47,916 nt of DNA from Limosilactobacillus avistercoris (lineage in GTDB: Bacteria; Bacillota; Bacilli; Lactobacillales; Lactobacillaceae): the NCBI RefSeq assembly GCF_014836425.1, contig NZ_JACSQW010000014.1, positions 1 through 47,916 on the forward strand, written 5' to 3'. Under the pieces are notes generated by a model. That model had not been told where the DNA came from, did not search any database, and saw nothing but the letters and a program-made list of their open reading frames with translations. Numbering within the stretch: the stretch's first letter is position 1; the number at the start of each line of letters is the position of its first letter. Below are positions 24,662 through 32,929 of the stretch, in pieces. The translations under genes and the position numbers were made by a program.

Positions 24662-26197
24662 ATGACTGTATATAATGTCAACCTCGGGATTGGTTGGGGA
24701 AGCAGTGGTATAGAATACGCCCAGGCTTACCGTGCGCAATCCTTGCGAAAATTAAAAGTACCAGCTAAATTTATCTTTTCAGATCTGATCTTGGCCAATA
24801 ATATCGAGGATCTAACAAAGAATCTTGGCTATTCCGATGATGAGATTATCTGGTTTTACAATTTCTTTACTGACGTGAAGATTGCACCGTCAGATTACCC
24901 GTTGGGTCAATTTGAAAAGGATATTAACCTTAATGAACGGAATGCTAAACGTGAAGAAATTAATGGCGGAAAGAACTATTTCTATACTTTAGCTGATGAA
25001 GGATTATCAATTAATGTGCGTTTTCATGATCAGAAAAAGAAAACGATTGATCAAGTGTCTTACGTTGCTAATGAAGTGATGGTTAAGCGTGATTTCTACT
25101 CTTACACGAAATATGCGACCGAATATTACAATGGGGTTAAGGAAAATAATCAGGTTACCCACCGTGACTTTTACAACGAAGATGGTAGTGTTGCCTATAC
25201 CCAACATGTTCGGGGACAACATGAGGTTTTTGAATTTCCTGATAAAATCTACTATTCAAAGAATGACCTTTATTTAGAAATGTTGAAACGACTGAAGTTA
25301 ACCAAGGACGATACCATTATTCTTGATCGGGAAGATGATGGAAATATCTTGATTAATGGTCAATTAATTTTTGAACACCATGATCCCGCCAAGTTGGTAA
25401 TCGTGGTCCATGCTGATCACTATGATGAGCACTATACTAACAAGAAGACTGTTTTATGGAACAACTTCTATGAGTACCAATTCACTCATACTAAAGATGT
25501 TGCTAGTTTTATCGTTGCTACTGATAAGCAACGTGACTTATTAAAAAAGCAATTTAAACAATATCAAAACGTACAACCAAATGTTACAACGATTCCGGTC
25601 GGTAATCTTAAACAATTAACGAAGCCGACAACTAAACGGAAACCTCATTCTCTAATTACTGCTTCCCGATTAGCTACCGAAAAGCATATTGACTGGCTAA
25701 TTAAAGCAGTAGCAAAAGCCCACCAGGAAGTGCCGGATGTAACACTTGATATTTATGGCCAGGGTGGTGAAATGGGCCGGTTGAGTCAATTAATTAACCA
25801 GTATAAGGCTAACTCGTATATTCGCCTCATGGGACAACATGATCTAACTACCGTTTACCAAAAGTATGCCGCTTATATTGCTGGTTCGACTAGTGAAGGA
25901 TTTGGCTTAAGTTTGCTTGAAGCAGTTGGTTCTGGCTTACCAATGATTGGTTTCGATGTTCCATATGGTAACCAGACCTTCATTGATGATGGTAAAAATG
26001 GTTACCTATTGCCGTATGCTCAGGATTGGAGTGACGATAAAAAGGTTGACCTTTTGGCCGGAGCGGTCGTCAAACTCTTTACCAAAGCCGATCAAGAAAA
26101 GTTCGTCCAGCGTTCATATGAATTGGCTGAGCCATATTTAACCGATAATGTTGCTAAACGCTGGGGAAAGCTATTGGAGGAATTGAAGAATGATTAA
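24662..26197 (+). CDS. gtfA: Accessory Sec glycosyltransferase GtfA
   Basis: GtfA, with GtfB, adds the first GlcNAc to Ser/Thr of serine-rich-repeat adhesins in the cytosol before export. The 511-residue protein starts T-V-Y-N-V-N-L-G-I-G-W-G-S-S-G-I-E-Y-A-Q-A-Y, the GtfA acceptor and nucleotide-site opening. It has the GT-B/GT4 donor motif G-S-T-S-E-G-F-G-L-S-L-L-E-A near residues 399-412. The central DUF1975-like extension (about 70-210) is present. It follows the truncated secA2 by 20 bp with ribosome site GGGAGGAAG and overlaps gtfB by 8 bp. The gene appears intact although its substrate and export partners are missing here. Confidence 0.92.
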   Translation: MTVYNVNLGIGWGSSGIEYAQAYRAQSLRKLKVPAKFIFSDLILANNIEDLTKNLGYSDDEIIWFYNFFTDVKIAPSDYPLGQFEKDINLNERNAKREEINGGKNYFYTLADEGLSINVRFHDQKKKTIDQVSYVANEVMVKRDFYSYTKYATEYYNGVKENNQVTHRDFYNEDGSVAYTQHVRGQHEVFEFPDKIYYSKNDLYLEMLKRLKLTKDDTIILDREDDGNILINGQLIFEHHDPAKLVIVVHADHYDEHYTNKKTVLWNNFYEYQFTHTKDVASFIVATDKQRDLLKKQFKQYQNVQPNVTTIPVGNLKQLTKPTTKRKPHSLITASRLATEKHIDWLIKAVAKAHQEVPDVTLDIYGQGGEMGRLSQLINQYKANSYIRLMGQHDLTTVYQKYAAYIAGSTSEGFGLSLLEAVGSGLPMIGFDVPYGNQTFIDDGKNGYLLPYAQDWSDDKKVDLLAGAVVKLFTKADQEKFVQRSYELAEPYLTDNVAKRWGKLLEELKND

Positions 26198-27533
26198 CCT
26201 ATTTGAAAAATATGACGGTAGTTCCCGTGATTTCCTTTTTTCCCAAAAAATGGCCAAAATTAAGATTCCATCAGTAGCAATGATTGATAATGGCTTTTTG
26301 CCTGATGATGTTGACTCACCATTTAAGTACTTCTGTAATTTAAATGATGACCATGATCCACTCTACTTTGATCAACTTAAGATTCCGTACTATTGGCGGA
26401 TCTTGAGTACTGGCGAAAGTGGTCAGATTTATGATTTAGACAAAATGAAAGCGCGAATTATTTACAGTGCAACGGATAATTCCCGCTTTGTTAAAGAAGT
26501 CCAGTGGTTTAATGATGTTGGGACGACATCATGGGTTGATCACTACAATAACCATGGCCACCTTTTTGCTAAGACCTATTATCAAGATGGAAAAGCAACT
26601 TACCGAAAATACTTTAATAATCATGGTCAGACCGTAATTGAGTGGAATTTTGCGGCTGAAGATCTCTTCTTGGATGTGAAGGGACTCCATCGGCACTTTA
26701 CGTCATTGGCTAAGTTTGTAACCTTCTACCTCCAATTCCGTAAATATAACTTGGATCACGTCTTCTATAACTCGCTGAGTCATCCGCTATGGGTGATGGA
26801 TGAATTACCGGCTGGTGGAACAGATACCCTATTTTGGAATGAGGATACTGGTGCAACGATTCCTGGTAATATGCAATACCTTCTTAACAAAAATACGCGA
26901 ACAAAGCACATTGTTTTCCAGAAGTACCGTGATTGGGTTCGTCGGCGAGAATTATTCCCTGAAGGAACTGGTAATGTAGCTGATTTTCATTACTTGGGGA
27001 TGATTTATCCTCATCCACGAGGAAATAAACTTCAACCGCGGATTTTAATTATGACTAATTCTGATGAAATTGAACATTTGGATCAATTGGTAAATGCAAT
27101 GCCAAATATTGAATTCCGGATTGCTGCAGTAACAGAAATGTCTGGGAAATTATTGGCATTTGGTGAACGACCAAATGTTGAAGTTTATCCAAATGTTAGT
27201 CGTAAGCGAGCCTTACAGTTATTAAAAGACTGTGATATTTACCTTGATATTAATCATGGTAGTGAAATTCTTGATAGTGTTCGGGCGGCATTTGAACAAA
27301 ATATGTTAATTCTTGGCTTTAAGGATACTCTTCATGAGCCGCAATTTGTTGCTCCACAAAACGTCTTTGAGTCTAATCAAGCTCAGCAGATGACCCAAAC
27401 AGTCTTAACAGCATTGCTCAAACCAGCGCTAATGAAGAAACTAATTGATACTCAACGTGAATATGCTAATGATTCAACTGTTGAACAGTATAAAGAAGTG
27501 ATTGGGGCGATAACGGATGGCAAAGCAAGATAA
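26190..27533 (+). CDS. gtfB: Accessory Sec glycosylation stabiliser GtfB
   Basis: This 447-residue GtfB (TagE-like) protein is the non-catalytic partner that binds acceptor peptide for GtfA. It has the opening I-N-L-F-E-K-Y-D...S-S-R-D-F-L-F-S-Q-K-M-A and the central W-Y/W-F...D-H-Y-N...G-H-L-F-A-K-T-Y segment typical of the family. Its nucleotide-binding C-terminal domain is degenerate relative to GtfA. ATG 26190 overlaps the end of gtfA and has GGAGGAATTG upstream. The next small ORF starts within its last codons, so translation is coupled. Confidence 0.92.
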   Translation: MINLFEKYDGSSRDFLFSQKMAKIKIPSVAMIDNGFLPDDVDSPFKYFCNLNDDHDPLYFDQLKIPYYWRILSTGESGQIYDLDKMKARIIYSATDNSRFVKEVQWFNDVGTTSWVDHYNNHGHLFAKTYYQDGKATYRKYFNNHGQTVIEWNFAAEDLFLDVKGLHRHFTSLAKFVTFYLQFRKYNLDHVFYNSLSHPLWVMDELPAGGTDTLFWNEDTGATIPGNMQYLLNKNTRTKHIVFQKYRDWVRRRELFPEGTGNVADFHYLGMIYPHPRGNKLQPRILIMTNSDEIEHLDQLVNAMPNIEFRIAAVTEMSGKLLAFGERPNVEVYPNVSRKRALQLLKDCDIYLDINHGSEILDSVRAAFEQNMLILGFKDTLHEPQFVAPQNVFESNQAQQMTQTVLTALLKPALMKKLIDTQREYANDSTVEQYKEVIGAITDGKAR

Positions 27534-27738: not shown

Positions 27739-27792
27739 AACTTACAATAAGTTAGTATATCCTATTGACTTTTAGTAATTATCATGTAGAAT
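27739..27792 (+). promoter_or_regulatory. Promoter region of the cysteine-transporter operon
   Basis: TTGACT (27765-27770), a 16-bp spacer and TAGAAT (27787-27792) would start transcription near 27799, about 26 nt before the leader ORF. Upstream lies CTTACAATAAGTTAGTATA (27741-27759), 18 of 19 identical to the rpsN promoter segment 18789-18807, and the wider repeat AACTT-ACAAT-AAGTT (27739-27753). It may be an operator or a second promoter. Confidence 0.6.
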
Positions 27793-27824
27793 TTAGGTAA
27801 TTAATCACGAAGGGAGTTCAGATT

Positions 27825-27938
27825 ATGCAGAGTTTTGCCATGCCAAAAGAAGTTTGTCTTGCTTGTTGCAGTGTTTGTAACAAGACTTTTGGTGTGGAAA
27901 AATTCAGTAATTTGTACTCTAGTAAATGGTTGAGATAA
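27825..27938 (+). CDS. Cysteine-rich leader peptide (37 aa)
   Basis: ATG 27825 has AGGGAG (27811-27816) at an ideal 8-nt spacing. The peptide reads M-Q-S-F-A-M-P-K-E-V-C-L-A-C-C-S-V-C-N-K and ends at TAA 27936-27938. Cys codons stand at positions 11, 14, 15 and 18: four within eight codons, mixing TGT and TGC. An intrinsic terminator follows 26 bp later, ahead of a cysteine-type ABC transporter, so I read it as an attenuation leader peptide that senses Cys-tRNA charging. The alternative is a small metal-binding protein (C-x-x-C-C-x-x-C), but nothing else about the peptide suggests a stable fold. Confidence 0.72.
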   Translation: MQSFAMPKEVCLACCSVCNKTFGVEKFSNLYSSKWLR

Positions 27939-28008
27939 GTGTTTATTTTGACTGCTCATAAACTAGGCTTACAATTCTGGATTTGGAATTGCAAGCCTTT
28001 TTTATTTT
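27843..28008 (+). promoter_or_regulatory. Candidate cysteine-responsive attenuator (pause hairpin, antiterminator, terminator)
   Basis: CCAAAAG (27843-27849)/CTTTTGG (27886-27892) enclose CTTGTTGC (27862-27869)/GTAACAAG (27877-27884): a hairpin spanning all four Cys codons. AGGCTTACAATTC (27965-27977)/GAATTGCAAGCCT (27986-27998) plus a T run is a strong terminator. CAGTAATTTGTACTCTAGT (27905-27923) is complementary, with small bulges, to ACTAGGCTTACAATTCTG (27962-27979), so it can capture the terminator's 5' arm. A ribosome stalled at Cys codons would leave 27905-27923 free and allow readthrough. Confidence 0.7.
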
Positions 28009-28045
28009 AACTTCGCGGTAAAAAAGGAGAGAGGATGATCTATCG

Positions 28046-28705
28046 ATGGATTGGACGATAATCCAGCAAAGCCTACCCAATTTCGTCCAGGGATTTAAAT
28101 TAACCCTGTGGCTTTCACTGGTTGGGATTGTTGGATCGATTATTGTTGGTATCATTACGAGTTTGATTCAGTACTTTCGGATCCCGGTATTACGCCGGAT
28201 GTTCGGGATTTACGTTGAGGTTGCACGAAATACCCCCTTACTAATTCAGCTATTTTTCCTGTACTATGCATTTCCGGTAATGGGGATTAAGATGACAGCT
28301 GAGACCTGTGGGATTATCGGTTTGATTTTCCTCGGTGGTGCATACATGGCTGAGGGATTTACCGGTGGTTTCAACGGGGTGAGCCAAACCCAGATTGACG
28401 CGGGAGAGGCACTGGGGATGAACCAGTACCAACTTGCCTGGTATGTCGTCTTGCCCCAAGGCTTATCGTTGAGTGTTCCGGCATTGGCAGCGAACATTAT
28501 TTTCCTAATTAAGGAAACATCAATCTTTTCTGTAATCGCCATCCCGGAACTAACCAACACCGCCTTGGACTTGATCGGGATGTACTACCGGTCCAACGAA
28601 TACCTGTTGATGTTGGTAATCGCCTACGCAATTATCATGATTCCAGTAATCTTACTACTTGATTGGCTTGAAAGGAGGGTCCGTTATGGCGCATTCGGGG
28701 ATTAG
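28046..28705 (+). CDS. Amino acid (cyst(e)ine-type) ABC transporter permease 1
   Basis: This HisM-family permease (219 residues, about five helices) has the EAA-type loop D-A-G-E-A-L-G-M-N-Q-Y-Q...V-V-L-P-Q-G near 115-140, which docks to the ATPase. The N-terminal polar-amino-acid permease signature V-E-V-A-R-N-T-P-L-L-I-Q-L is at about 57-69. ATG 28046 follows GGAGAGAGG. It overlaps the second permease by 20 bp. With that gene, an ATPase and a binding protein it forms a complete uptake system under the upstream leader. Confidence 0.92.
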   Translation: MDWTIIQQSLPNFVQGFKLTLWLSLVGIVGSIIVGIITSLIQYFRIPVLRRMFGIYVEVARNTPLLIQLFFLYYAFPVMGIKMTAETCGIIGLIFLGGAYMAEGFTGGFNGVSQTQIDAGEALGMNQYQLAWYVVLPQGLSLSVPALAANIIFLIKETSIFSVIAIPELTNTALDLIGMYYRSNEYLLMLVIAYAIIMIPVILLLDWLERRVRYGAFGD

Positions 28706-29366
28706 TGTTCTCTTTGAAGGGACGAACTTTACCCGACTAATGGGCGGCCTGTGGACGTCGGTTTGGATCGCGGTTGTTTCCCTAGTGATTGGTCTTTTGA
28801 TTGGGACAATCTTTGGCCTTCTGCGGACCATGCGGAGTCGGATTATCCGCTTCATCCTCTTGTTATACCTTGAATTTTTCCGGATTGTCCCGACGGTAGT
28901 CCTCTTGTTCCTGGTTTACTACATCTTGCCACGGCAATTTGATATTAACCTCCCGGCAACCTGGATGGCAGTCTTAGCGTTTTCCCTGTGGGTTGCTGCT
29001 GAATTTAGTGACATCGTTCGGGGAGCGCTTGAATCGGTTCCCCAACACCAGCGAGAATCTGGCTTAGCGTTGGGCTTGAACCAATGGCAACTTTTCCGTT
29101 ATGTCTTGCTTTCCCAAGCAATCCAGCTTGAATTGCCGGCAACCATTAATTTGGCTACCCGGGTGATCAAGACGACTTCGCTGTTGCTGATGATTAGCGT
29201 TATGGATGTAATTAATGTCGGCCAACAGATTATTGAGGCGAATAACCAGACACACCCAACCGGAATCTTCTGGGTGTACGGGTTAATCTTTATCCTCTAC
29301 TTTATTGTTGATTACCCATTATCACTATGGTCAAAGCACTTAACCGCAAAGGCAGAACGAAAATAG
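28686..29366 (+). CDS. Amino acid (cyst(e)ine-type) ABC transporter permease 2
   Basis: This is the second membrane subunit, 226 residues from ATG 28686 (M-A-H-S-G-I-S), preceded by AAAGGAGGG. L-E-F-F-R-I-V-P-T-V-V-L-L-F and the EAA loop E-S-G-L-A-L-G-L-N-Q-W-Q-L are present. The frame is open a little further upstream, but that part has no ribosome site. The overlap with permease 1 suggests translational coupling and a heterodimeric channel. The sequence contains no cysteine. Confidence 0.92.
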   Translation: MAHSGISVLFEGTNFTRLMGGLWTSVWIAVVSLVIGLLIGTIFGLLRTMRSRIIRFILLLYLEFFRIVPTVVLLFLVYYILPRQFDINLPATWMAVLAFSLWVAAEFSDIVRGALESVPQHQRESGLALGLNQWQLFRYVLLSQAIQLELPATINLATRVIKTTSLLLMISVMDVINVGQQIIEANNQTHPTGIFWVYGLIFILYFIVDYPLSLWSKHLTAKAERK

Positions 29367-29378
29367 GCAGGTGGAATT

Positions 29379-30119
29379 ATGACGGAAGAAATTCTAAAAG
29401 TTGAACATTTAAATAAGTTTTATGGTGATTGGCAAGTCCTCCACGACATTAACTTTGATCTCAAGAAGGGTGAAGTTGTGACCCTTCTTGGACCGTCTGG
29501 TTCGGGGAAGAGTACCTTGATCAGGACGCTCAATGGTCTTGAACCATTCCGGAAAGGAAGTATTTACTTTAAAGGAAAGAAAATTGATCCGACCCCGAAG
29601 GAATGGCAGAAGTTGCGTCAAGAAATCGGGATGGTTTTCCAGAGTTACGATCTTTTCCCGAACTTGACTGTGTTGGACAACATTCTCCTGGCACCAACTA
29701 AGGTTCAAGGACGGAACCGCGCGGATGTTAAAAAGGAAGCGATGGAGCTCTTGGACCGGGTCGATCTAGCAGACCAAGCTAATTCGTACCCCCGGCAATT
29801 ATCCGGTGGACAAAAGCAACGGATCGCCATCGTTCGGGCATTGGCGATGCATCCTGAATTGATGCTCTTTGACGAAGTGACCGCATCACTAGATCCCGAA
29901 ATGGTCCGTGGAGTTCTCGAAATTATTAAGGAGTTATCTGATCGTGATCACATGACGATGATCATTGTGACCCACGAAATGAACTTTGCTGCCCAGATTG
30001 CGGACCGGGTCCTGTTCTTAGAGAATGGCCGGATCCTGGAAGAAACCCCAGGAAAGCAATTCTTTGAACACCCACAAACCGCCAGAGCAGCAGAATTCTT
30101 ATCAAGTATGGAATTTTAG
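29379..30119 (+). CDS. Amino acid ABC transporter ATP-binding protein
   Basis: The 246-residue ATPase has Walker A G-P-S-G-S-G-K-S-T (38-46), Q-loop V-F-Q-S near 87, signature L-S-G-G-Q (141-145), Walker B L-M-L-F-D-E (161-166) and the switch His in V-T-H-E-M. It belongs to the GlnQ/HisP group (polar amino acid transport). It starts 12 bp after permease 2. It contains no cysteine, which is unusual and fits a transporter needed when cysteine is scarce. Confidence 0.95.
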   Translation: MTEEILKVEHLNKFYGDWQVLHDINFDLKKGEVVTLLGPSGSGKSTLIRTLNGLEPFRKGSIYFKGKKIDPTPKEWQKLRQEIGMVFQSYDLFPNLTVLDNILLAPTKVQGRNRADVKKEAMELLDRVDLADQANSYPRQLSGGQKQRIAIVRALAMHPELMLFDEVTASLDPEMVRGVLEIIKELSDRDHMTMIIVTHEMNFAAQIADRVLFLENGRILEETPGKQFFEHPQTARAAEFLSSMEF

Positions 30120-30134: not shown

Positions 30135-30989
30135 ATGAAGAAGATTAATTGGAAGAAAATTATTGCCGGTGCCCTTACCGTAGCCGGCGCAGTCGCTTTA
30201 CTTGCCGGATCAAGCTACGTTAAGCCAACTACCGCCAGTGCCGCAAGTAACTCAAGTTCTGTTTCCGCCATTAAGAAGCGGGGAACGCTCCGGGTCGCTG
30301 TCTTTGGTGACTTACCTCCATATGGTTGGGTAAACAAAGACGGTAAGCGGGTTGGTTATGATGTCGAGTTAGCCCGTCAAATGGCCAAGGATCTTGGAGT
30401 AAAGCCAAAGTTCATCCAAGTTAACGCCAATAACCGGGTGGATACTTTGAACTCCAACAAGGCCGATATCGTTTTGGCTAACTTCACCGTTACCCCAGAA
30501 CGGAAGAAGGTCGTTGATTTCGCTAAGCCTTACATGAAGGTTTCTGTTGGTGTCGTTTCTCCTAAGAAGAAGGCCATCACCAAGGTTAGCCAATTGAAGG
30601 GTAAAAAAGTCATCGTTACCAAGGGAACTACTGCTGAAAACTACTTCACCAGTAAGCAACCCGGCGTTCAACTCTTAAAGTTTGACTCCAAGACCCAACA
30701 ATTCAATGCCTTGAAGAATAACCGTGCTGCTGCCTTGGCCGATGATAACTCTTACCTCTATGCTTGGGTAAAGAAGAACCCGAAGTATACTGTTGGTATC
30801 AAGAGCATCGGTCCTAAGCAATACATTTCCCCAGCCGTTAAGAAAGGTAACAAGTCCCTCCTCGATTGGTCCAACAAGGAAATCACCAAGTTAACCAAGA
30901 AGGGCTTCTTCACCCAAGACTACAACAGCCAATTAAAGCCTTACTTCGGCAGCGAAGTAAAGCCGGGAGATATTGTGTTGGATAAGTAG
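30135..30989 (+). CDS. Cysteine/cystine-binding protein (CjaA/BspA-like)
   Basis: The 284-residue protein has a signal peptide (K-K-I-N-W-K-K, hydrophobic to about 25, A-S-A cleavage near 34-36) but no lipobox cysteine, and indeed no cysteine anywhere. R-V-A-V-F-G-D-L-P-P-Y-G-(W)-V, A-N-F-T-V-T-P-E-R-K-K-V-V-D-F, K-G-T-T-A-E-N-Y-F-T, the D-D-N...A-W-V-K segment and P-A-V-K-K-G match the Campylobacter CjaA-type cysteine receptor region by region. The strongly basic, non-lipidated form recalls BspA of L. fermentum, a cystine-uptake surface protein held by charge. It is the last gene of the operon. Confidence 0.87.
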   Translation: MKKINWKKIIAGALTVAGAVALLAGSSYVKPTTASAASNSSSVSAIKKRGTLRVAVFGDLPPYGWVNKDGKRVGYDVELARQMAKDLGVKPKFIQVNANNRVDTLNSNKADIVLANFTVTPERKKVVDFAKPYMKVSVGVVSPKKKAITKVSQLKGKKVIVTKGTTAENYFTSKQPGVQLLKFDSKTQQFNALKNNRAAALADDNSYLYAWVKKNPKYTVGIKSIGPKQYISPAVKKGNKSLLDWSNKEITKLTKKGFFTQDYNSQLKPYFGSEVKPGDIVLDK

Positions 30990-31525: not shown

Positions 31526-32929
31526 TTACAGATTCTCATCCGTCTTAAAGTTCAATTCACAATAATCGGTCATCTTAGTAATCAATTCTAGAGCTAAGTT
31601 CTTGTAAGCCGTCAAAGTATCGGTAGCAAACTTGTCGCTTTGGTCATTCAAGTAATCGGTCAATGCATCACCATGCAATGTAGGAACTGTCTCGTCCGTC
31701 ACCCGAATAAGCTTTTGAGCAGCGCTGTTCCGTTCTTTTTGAACATCCCGGAGAAGGGGAAGGAAGTCGTGGAGGTGACTATCAACCAGGACACTAGCAT
31801 GCTTGAAGATCCAGTAAGCTGAATTTAATTGAGCTGGTAATTTTCCGCGGCCATATGGGGCAGGAAGCTTCGTGATCCCATTAAAGAATGGGACATAGGT
31901 ACTTTCGTTAGCAACTCCCATGGCGAGCCAGTGGATGCTTGGACCCTTTCGTCCAGTTTGGAGAACGTGTGATTCCTGTGTCTTTGCCAGGCTGATTGGC
32001 CGGTACTTATGAGCGTTCGGACCATCAGTGAGTGGATCAAATTTGGTTCCTTCATAGTGGTTGCTCAAGTAGTTTTGGGCATCAATAACTGAAAGTAAAC
32101 GATCCGGCTTCATCAAGAATGGCAATTCGGTTGATTCTGGAGTTTCGTCGCTAGCTTGGCTTGGACTGAACATCTGGTGACCAATCCAGACTCGTGGTTC
32201 ACTGTAGATTGCGTCGGAACGATCCGCGGTTCCAAAGATCTTACGGAAATTAAATGTGCTTGGGTCGGGGTTCAAGTGGTTCTTTTCGACAAACTCTTGG
32301 ATCCCAGGTTGGAACATGAAGTTGTCCGGATCGTTGAAGTCGATTTCTTGGATTGCCAATTGGTTAGCAACTACCGCGTAGCAATCATCCGGGATCCGTT
32401 GGGCAACCCAGTAGTGCCCCGCACCGGTTTCAAAGTACCAGGCTTCATCATCATCGGCGAATAGGACACCATTTGTTTCGCCAGTTCCGTACTTGGCAAT
32501 CAGGCTACCCAGGCGGAGAACCCCTTCACGGGCAGTTTTTACAAATGGCAATACAACGGTGACCATTGCTTCCTCGTTCACCCCGTTCTTTACCAGTGGG
32601 TCCGCACCAAGGACTAGGCTATTGGAGTAGGCACTTTCGGTCGCACTCATTGCAACACCGTATTCGTTAATCCCGTCTTCTTCGAACAGCCCATACTTGT
32701 CCGTCCATTCTGGAGTAGCGGAATAACGGGCACTATCGTCTGGTAAGTCGATTTCAAGCTTAGTTTCTTTTGAAGTAAACTTTCGTGGAACCGCACCATG
32801 TGGGTGGATTACCATGTGCTTTGGCCAGGCAGCCTTGGCATCTTCGTTTCGCCCAATCATGATTGAGCCGTCAATGCTGGCTTTTTTCCCAATCAAAATA
32901 CTCGTACATGCGGATAATTTGTTTGGCAT
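31526..32929 (-). CDS. pepD: C69-family dipeptidase
   Basis: The 467-residue cytosolic Ntn-hydrolase hydrolyses a broad range of dipeptides. M-P-N-K-L-S-A-C-T-S-I-L-I-G-K-K-A-S provides the nucleophile Cys8 (family members expose it as the N-terminal residue after processing), and D-G-S-I-M-I-G-R-N-E-D is the next conserved block. Ribosome site AAAAGGGG precedes ATG. The length is normal for PepD/PepDA. It is monocistronic with its own terminator. It supplies amino acids from peptides, in keeping with the amino-acid-dependent lifestyle. Confidence 0.93.
   Translation of the reverse strand: MPNKLSACTSILIGKKASIDGSIMIGRNEDAKAAWPKHMVIHPHGAVPRKFTSKETKLEIDLPDDSARYSATPEWTDKYGLFEEDGINEYGVAMSATESAYSNSLVLGADPLVKNGVNEEAMVTVVLPFVKTAREGVLRLGSLIAKYGTGETNGVLFADDDEAWYFETGAGHYWVAQRIPDDCYAVVANQLAIQEIDFNDPDNFMFQPGIQEFVEKNHLNPDPSTFNFRKIFGTADRSDAIYSEPRVWIGHQMFSPSQASDETPESTELPFLMKPDRLLSVIDAQNYLSNHYEGTKFDPLTDGPNAHKYRPISLAKTQESHVLQTGRKGPSIHWLAMGVANESTYVPFFNGITKLPAPYGRGKLPAQLNSAYWIFKHASVLVDSHLHDFLPLLRDVQKERNSAAQKLIRVTDETVPTLHGDALTDYLNDQSDKFATDTLTAYKNLALELITKMTDYCELNFKTDENL

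Follow-up and report, generated by a model that had tools for sequence, protein, structure and literature searches.

How is a putative cysteine importer adjusted to cysteine supply in a lactobacillus when no T-box is detected ahead of its operon? Amino acid genes of Gram-positive bacteria are textbook T-box territory, and the window analyzed here (the whole 47,916-nucleotide stretch of Limosilactobacillus avistercoris contig NZ_JACSQW010000014.1) carries a small upstream ORF (uORF) with clustered cysteine codons in front of such an operon. The original prediction had stated that a T-box is lacking here, and this was borne out: no Rfam family, T-box included, matched the window at gathering score, and a T-box search of the whole genome, which returned 27 matches at E ≤ 0.01, including 12 above the family cut-off, placed none on the window's contig at that threshold. 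We conclude that the leader very probably works by ribosome-mediated transcription attenuation, with Cys-tRNA supply as its signal and the putative cysteine importer as its target. The uORF, its Cys cluster, the hairpins, the terminator, their covariation and the exchange with Cys T-boxes can be read from the DNA itself; the features of the locus are collected in Table 1.

Table 1. Features of the leader, the operon and the neighboring genes (positions in the window)
Feature	Positions	Strand	Basis and remarks
Accessory Sec glycosylation chaperone GtfB, directly upstream	26190-27533		TIGR02919
Promoter-like sequence TTGACT-16-TAGAAT	27765-27792	+	consensus scan, 10/12 consensus matches
Ribosome site (Shine-Dalgarno, SD) of the leader ORF	27809-27816	+	GAAGGGAG; ATG 8 nt beyond its end
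Leader hairpin P1	27813-27920	+	fold; inner stem 27862-27870 with 27876-27884 carries Cys codons
Leader peptide ORF	27825-27938	+	37 codons plus stop; encodes MQSFAMPKEVCLACCSVCNKTFGVEKFSNLYSSKWLR (37 aa)
Cys codons 11, 14, 15 and 18	27855-27878	+	TGT, TGT, TGC, TGT
Proposed antiterminator, 5' strand	27900-27923	+	folds; overlaps the 3' strand of the P1 base
Proposed antiterminator, 3' strand	27962-27984	+	folds; equals terminator 5' arm plus loop
Intrinsic terminator	27965-28003	+	fold, -15.0 kcal/mol; stem 27965-27998, then U-run; one A.C mismatch
Amino acid ABC transporter permease 1	28046-28705	+	PF00528, E = 1.2e-18
Amino acid ABC transporter permease 2	28686-29366	+	PF00528, E = 1.5e-14
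Amino acid ABC transporter ATPase	29379-30119	+	PF00005, E = 2.1e-38
Substrate-binding protein (family 3), cysteine the probable substrate	30135-30989	+	PF00497
C69 family dipeptidase, downstream on the opposite strand	31526-32929	-	

The assignment of the operon follows from its binding protein: among solved structures, 2yjp (E = 7e-80) and 1xt8 (E = 1.9e-72) are its best relatives. We take these to be the cysteine receptors of Neisseria and Campylobacter, in agreement with the resemblance to cysteine receptors noted beforehand, and judged from these relatives the substrate of the importer is probably cysteine. In an operon tree, the closest relative of the window is Limosilactobacillus fastidiosus (96% identical).

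Sequence and translation both confirm the 37-codon ORF, with Cys at codons 11, 14, 15 and 18, on which the original prediction was built; the ribosome site that it called ideal is indeed present at a suitable position, and is better described as good. The promoter-like sequence upstream is weak, because three such sites were found where 1.2 are expected by chance. Given a Cys background of 0.546% (213,489 ORF residues from the fetched loci), four or more Cys in 36 residues would arise with P = 4.6e-5, and the cluster at codons 11-18 alone with P = 6e-8, the latter for a segment chosen after the fact. A cluster that stands out in these chance and background tests, together with the putative cysteine importer downstream, is what would be expected of a ribosome-mediated attenuator, as is the predicted translatable uORF, the start, SD and frame of which are retained among relatives. 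Homologous leader DNA was found in 6 of 94 relatives. Among 13 aligned leader peptides C11, C14 and C15 are invariant and C18 is not (it is absent from leaders L010 and L018); N19 and F22 are likewise conserved. The length of the ORF is more variable: among 16 leaders of the window's type it comprises 28 codons in 12, 32 in L016 and L099, and 37 only in the window and its relative L. fastidiosus (L008), where a frame shift carries the ORF across the antiterminator strand. In the 12 shorter leaders the ORF stops at the edge of that strand, whereas the window and L. fastidiosus read through it in the shifted frame; as judged from the aligned sequences, the frame changes and the RNA is kept.

The leader RNA is far more stable than shuffled sequences. 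The segment 27800-28020 folds at -75.1 kcal/mol, compared with -47.4 ± 3.95 kcal/mol for 200 shuffled sequences (z = -7.0), none of which was equally good. The Cys codons do lie within a hairpin, as had been proposed, and the span given for it, 27843-27892, proves to be the inner part of a longer structure, P1, which spans 27813-27920 and pairs the SD region with the segment 3' of the Cys codons. The distance from the start to codon 11 is roughly that of one ribosome, and an initiating ribosome queued behind a stalled one would therefore cover the SD strand of P1. The covariation tests are based on an alignment (A2) of the 16 leaders of the window's type. For P1, 83.7% of the alignment cells are paired, 14 pairs show changes on both sides and the covariation score was reached in 0 of 500 shuffles; like the other shuffle tests on A2, this is support rather than proof, since the shuffles leave the relatedness of the leaders in place, and a small number of events among related species may account for many of the covarying changes.

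An intrinsic terminator between the uORF and the first gene of the operon, the next element to be expected of an attenuator, is indicated by both fold and covariation. In A2, 96.4% of its cells are paired, with five pairs changed on both sides and a covariation score reached in 0 of 500 shuffles. The perfect-type terminator that had been placed at 27965-28008 is therefore confirmed as a co-varying terminator, with the corrections that its stem contains a mismatch and that its U-run extends to 28003. A simple terminator scan did not list 27965-28003, its sole listed site being the inner leader hairpin. The position of the terminator bears on the proposal that Cys-dependent stalling acts on translation of the operon or on RNA stability and not on termination. 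We regard this as very unlikely: it would draw on the moderate strength of the evidence for the antiterminator described below, and is opposed both by a co-varying terminator standing between ORF and operon and by a fold of 27800-28045, in which the operon's own ribosome site is free of the main leader structures.

The antiterminator is the step of the attenuator that is moderately supported by these comparisons. Pairing of 27905-27923 with 27962-27979 had been suggested; the segment 27900-27984 does adopt this pairing in its minimum-energy fold (-20.1 kcal/mol), in a duplex that is larger than suggested and reaches 27984, and the shuffle tests on it are weak. On A2, 91.9% of the antiterminator cells are paired, versus at most 46% when the strands are slid against each other, and one pair changes on both sides, from U-A to C-G in 8 of the 16 leaders. 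Out of 500 shuffles, 29 reach the pairing percentage, 14 the number of changed cells, 179 the covariation score and 415 the number of changed pairs; the window's own duplex ranks 12 of 100 shuffles. The changes are linked across the competing structures: columns 117 and 188, which are common to the P1 base, the antiterminator and the terminator, change together in 8 of 16 leaders, and in those eight column 21 (the partner of 117 in the P1 base) follows in six and column 205 (the partner of 188 in the terminator) in five, the other three retaining G-U. The terminator loop, which pairs within the antiterminator, is mostly conserved. When the 5' part of the leader was omitted, mimicking a stalled ribosome, and the RNA ended before the 3' arm of the terminator, the antiterminator was the best fold (-20.1 to -20.4 kcal/mol). 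For RNA extended to 27999 the antiterminator still wins in two of four starting points, and for RNA extended to 28009 the terminator wins in all four; the switch must therefore be largely kinetic, as in classical attenuation.

From these elements we infer translation, stalling, the antiterminator switch and the response in vivo as follows. With ample cysteine, the ribosome would pass the Cys codons, the 5' strand of the antiterminator would be covered by the ribosome or paired in P1, and the terminator would then stop transcription. With Cys-tRNA in short supply, the ribosome would stall at codons 11-18 and open the leader hairpin, and the freed 5' strand would pair with the 5' arm and loop of the terminator, such that the operon is transcribed. 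If the leader were not translated, it would fold as a whole and the terminator would form.

A simpler arrangement is suggested by the leaders of the mucosae type (L037, L039, L101 and L109), in which the peptide ends Cys-Cys-stop (...ACC-stop) and these same codons constitute the 5' arm of the terminator. Their terminators have folding energies of -29.9 to -33.0 kcal/mol and the pairing is retained despite sequence change (L037 and L039 are alike there); a ribosome stalled on this variant would block the terminator directly. By extension, a stalled ribosome might cover or displace the terminator arm in the window and related leaders too, with no dedicated antiterminator. This appears unlikely, if worth keeping in mind, since 87 nt separate the last Cys codon of the window from the terminator arm downstream, a distance beyond the reach of a ribosome, and the conserved terminator loop fits the antiterminator. 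For the window, attenuation by way of the proposed antiterminator is the preferred reading.

The conservation of the leader was followed across orthologous operons. Within the genus, some permease match was present in 50 of 50 genomes and the 24 places at ≥72% identity were counted as orthologs. Each of the 24 is preceded by a Cys leader: 20 of these leaders satisfy a strict rule (an SD, 10-65 codons, at least three Cys within 10 residues and no more than 330 nt to the gene), and in four (L101, L106, L107 and L109) the peptide ends Cys-Cys-stop. Alignment of the leader across Limosilactobacillus had been proposed as a check, and its outcome was favorable, with the Cys codons kept in 24 of 24, the peptide drifting, and P1 and the terminator co-varying. 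When 2400 shuffled leaders were put through the strict detector it matched 19, and on 120 reverse strands it matched none. A search of a genome collection with the binding protein retained the best 80 of 211 relatives. In loci L008-L087 the detector fired upstream of 35 of 734 ORFs of ≥120 aa, 31 of the 35 being the cysteine ABC operon. Among the other four matches, L082 is the leader of another gene. Cys-cluster ORFs before other genes in L030 (a GTG start, overlapping the next gene) and in the near copies L077 and L078 (the latter with no clear terminator) were dismissed on sight as chance. An RNA model (R1) of the 16 window-type leaders matched 13 of 50 genomes of the genus at E ≤ 1.8e-13 and one more at 0.086, matches that add little because the members of the model match by construction.

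Across the family, the permease was found at E ≤ 1e-70 in 88 of 396 Lactobacillaceae genomes, and the total of 188 loci was reduced to 120 groups that share no 120-base stretch. Of the 120 non-redundant upstream regions, 34 contain a strict Cys uORF and 39 contain a T-box motif (defined by a regular expression); 47 have neither and none has both. The counts for Cys leaders and T-boxes are lower bounds, as the detectors miss some cases. The 47 regions with neither include the Cys-Cys-stop leaders, several Lactobacillus species, Leuconostoc, Fructobacillus and Heyndrickxia. Locus L175, taken for a Cys leader by a looser classifier, has the T-box motif and was dropped by the strict rule. No T-box reached the Rfam gathering score in one set of 12 loci; the T-box model gave E values of 3.5e-9 to 3.5e-14 at the orthologous operon in six of six loci tested, and the T-boxes of L064 and L069 exceed the gathering score. 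In four of four operon T-box alignments (L030, L040, L043 and L056) the specifier triplet, its position read by eye, is UGC, for cysteine. A crude motif search for a Cys-specific T-box elsewhere in the window's own genome gave nothing convincing.

PMC6004538 describes a Cys T-box ahead of the L. paracasei glnP2-glnM2-artM2-glnH4 operon, the expression of which is reported to be higher without cysteine. A plasmid of L. paracasei ATCC 334 (L145, NC_008502.1) carries an operon with the same gene order as that of the window; its binding protein shares 84.8% identity with the window's across residues 46-282, and we infer that this is the operon described there. The L145 importer operon lies on a mobilizable plasmid, flanked by insertion sequences, and similar plasmid copies occur in Lactiplantibacillus plantarum. 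In a quick tree of 81 operons, the Cys leaders of Companilactobacillus fall among T-box clades, apart from those of Limosilactobacillus and Lactobacillus, and at least three changes between Cys leader and T-box are required. The best reading is that the attenuator of the window belongs to a family-wide set of Cys leaders that has repeatedly traded places with T-boxes.

Control of the operon by a metabolite-binding riboswitch or a T-box, with the ORF present by chance, would be in keeping with the strong folding of the leader, and a SAM riboswitch does precede the orthologous operon in Heyndrickxia acidiproducens (L079, 2327-2433). Nevertheless, we consider it scarcely credible for the window, as the Cys cluster is far above chance and neither the window nor any of 19 related leader loci (two of the cysteine ABC type, the remaining 17 ahead of other genes) has an Rfam match at gathering score.

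Cys leaders of this kind also precede genes other than the cysteine ABC operon. A leader-peptide profile, built from 13 peptides and then from 23, was run on the 396 Lactobacillaceae genomes and matched 20 of them at E ≤ 0.02 and 62 at E ≤ 0.05, also before other genes, the weak matches including chance ones. In an order-wide sample of 295 genomes, eight had a profile match at E ≤ 0.02; the two outside the family (A5 matches G566 and G525) are chance, with no SD-led Cys uORF. In its own genome the profile found the leader of the window only, besides one chance match (G000:C53:77078, E = 0.056) that is antisense to a phosphoglycerate-mutase-like gene and was rejected as a second leader. By the strict rule, 82 distinct leaders with 78 different peptides were collected (L240 counted via its twin locus L265); the cysteine ABC operon follows 39 of them and other genes follow 43. 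Eight further profile matches (L299, L303, L304, L305 and L310-L313) have no Cys ORF by the SD rule and stand outside the 82; some may be real, since L299 and L304 precede OppA-like genes and L303 precedes the permease operon.

As judged by N-terminal sequence, the 43 other genes or operons comprise 37 OppA-like binding proteins, two SDF symporters, two cystine-type permeases and two operons in which a ProC-like gene comes first. Pfam searches confirmed SBP_bac_5 in five of five OppA-like proteins and SDF in the single symporter that was run; for the one permease tested, the nearest model is a cystine permease, below its cut-off. The OppA-like set (L228, L230, L231, L236, L237, L242, L245, L265, L269-L271, L273-L280, L282-L284, L286, L289-L298, L300-L302 and L309) spans several Lactobacillaceae genera, and its peptides often contain CCPCC or CCxCC followed by NM. 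The leaders suggest that these proteins take up cysteine-containing peptides. The SDF-family symporter with a Cys leader (L233 and L235, at about 1477 in the oriented locus) is from two other genomes of the window's genus. In L307 and L308 the Cys leader is followed by a ProC-like gene, a VOC-like gene and then an amidohydrolase or a family-3 binding protein (names given by sight), an operon that perhaps serves sulfur salvage.

This wider set also bears on whether the ORF could encode a functional Cys-rich microprotein, metal-binding or redox-active, that lies before the operon by chance, the RNA folds being secondary. Motifs such as C..CC..C and CCxCC do resemble metal ligands, and N19 and F22 are conserved alongside the cysteines. 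Nonetheless, we judge the idea highly improbable, as the number and spacing of the Cys vary (28 different patterns in 82 leaders, with peptides of 26-48 residues), the Asn-Met that follows the Cys codons is the outcome expected from complementarity to TGTTG, and the mucosae-type peptide ends in the very codons that form the terminator arm. A terminator-like hairpin, moreover, follows 80 of the 82 leaders (in a search without shuffle control). In 63 of 80 leaders, the 5' region pairs with the stretch that follows the Cys codons well enough to fall within the best 5% of shuffles; the antiterminator duplex does so in only 17 of 80, and for this reason it is not claimed as a general feature of all leaders. 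Cys makes up 13.4% of residues in the 82 leaders, by construction, since Cys was the selection criterion; Met, which was not selected for, makes up 8.0% versus a background of 2.2%. Met frequently stands just ahead of the Cys codons (MMMCCPCC), and part of its excess may come from pairing with them, although Met could conceivably contribute to sensing as well.

The trp and his attenuators of Proteobacteria share with the window a uORF with clustered codons for the regulated amino acid, alternative hairpins, an intrinsic terminator and a related operon. The window differs in that the amino acid is cysteine, the operon encodes an importer rather than a biosynthetic pathway, the host belongs to the Lactobacillaceae, where T-boxes are common, and the long hairpin also pairs the ribosome site of the uORF. 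Mycobacterial poly-Cys leaderless ORFs are said, in the title of a 2020 article by Canestrari, to be cysteine-responsive attenuators. Runs of Cys codons ahead of sulfur genes are common to the window and the actinobacterial leaders: PMC1262725 predicts Cys-run leader peptides before cys operons of Mycobacterium and other Actinobacteria, in which the runs are close to the stop codon; a conserved terminator hairpin was not found in Mycobacterium. Unlike the mycobacterial ORFs so described, the leader of the window is SD-led, with a central cluster and an intrinsic terminator. The uORFC-8-2 motif, predicted before cysS of Rhodobacterales in PMC8632094, has tandem Cys codons, usually 14-15, within a first stem, and a terminator with a U-run as in the window; likened here by its description, it differs in belonging to alpha-proteobacteria and to a synthetase gene. 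In bacilli, a His leader peptide before hisS/hisZ has been predicted in place of a T-box (PMC2965389), an ordinary leader peptide replacing a T-box in Firmicutes that differs in its amino acid, genes and genera. The L. paracasei Cys T-box of PMC6004538 apparently controls the same operon as the leader of the window and, like it, responds to uncharged tRNA-Cys, but there the RNA reads the tRNA directly, with no leader peptide.

In the open-licence PMC literature, no Cys leader-peptide attenuator in Lactobacillaceae was found among the matches listed, and passages of PMC10219788 (uORF4u) name neither cysteine nor lactobacilli. The original prediction of an unusual cysteine sensor stands insofar as a Lactobacillaceae set of Cys leaders was not found described there, and gives way insofar as the sensor is not unique, with predicted precedents in PMC1262725 and PMC8632094 and, for histidine, in PMC2965389. 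Attenuation of this sort is a classical principle. Within the literature covered, its novel aspects are the setting in which it occurs, the amino acid concerned, the exchange with T-boxes and the variant built on the terminator arm.

Taken together, it is likely that the Lactobacillaceae possess a cysteine regulon governed by Cys-codon leader peptides, covering the putative cysteine ABC importer along with cystine-type ABC genes, OppA-like peptide-binding proteins, an SDF symporter and a mixed operon with a possible role in sulfur salvage, in which leaders and Cys T-boxes were swapped several times before the same operon and one clade is minimal, its tandem Cys codons and stop forming the 5' arm of the terminator. 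Cys leaders and Cys T-boxes would then constitute a natural experiment, in which the same operon and the same signal are served by two exchanged RNA sensors, and the leaders offer a testable guess at the substrates of the OppA-like proteins, cysteine-containing peptides, and at the sulfur supply of lactobacilli.
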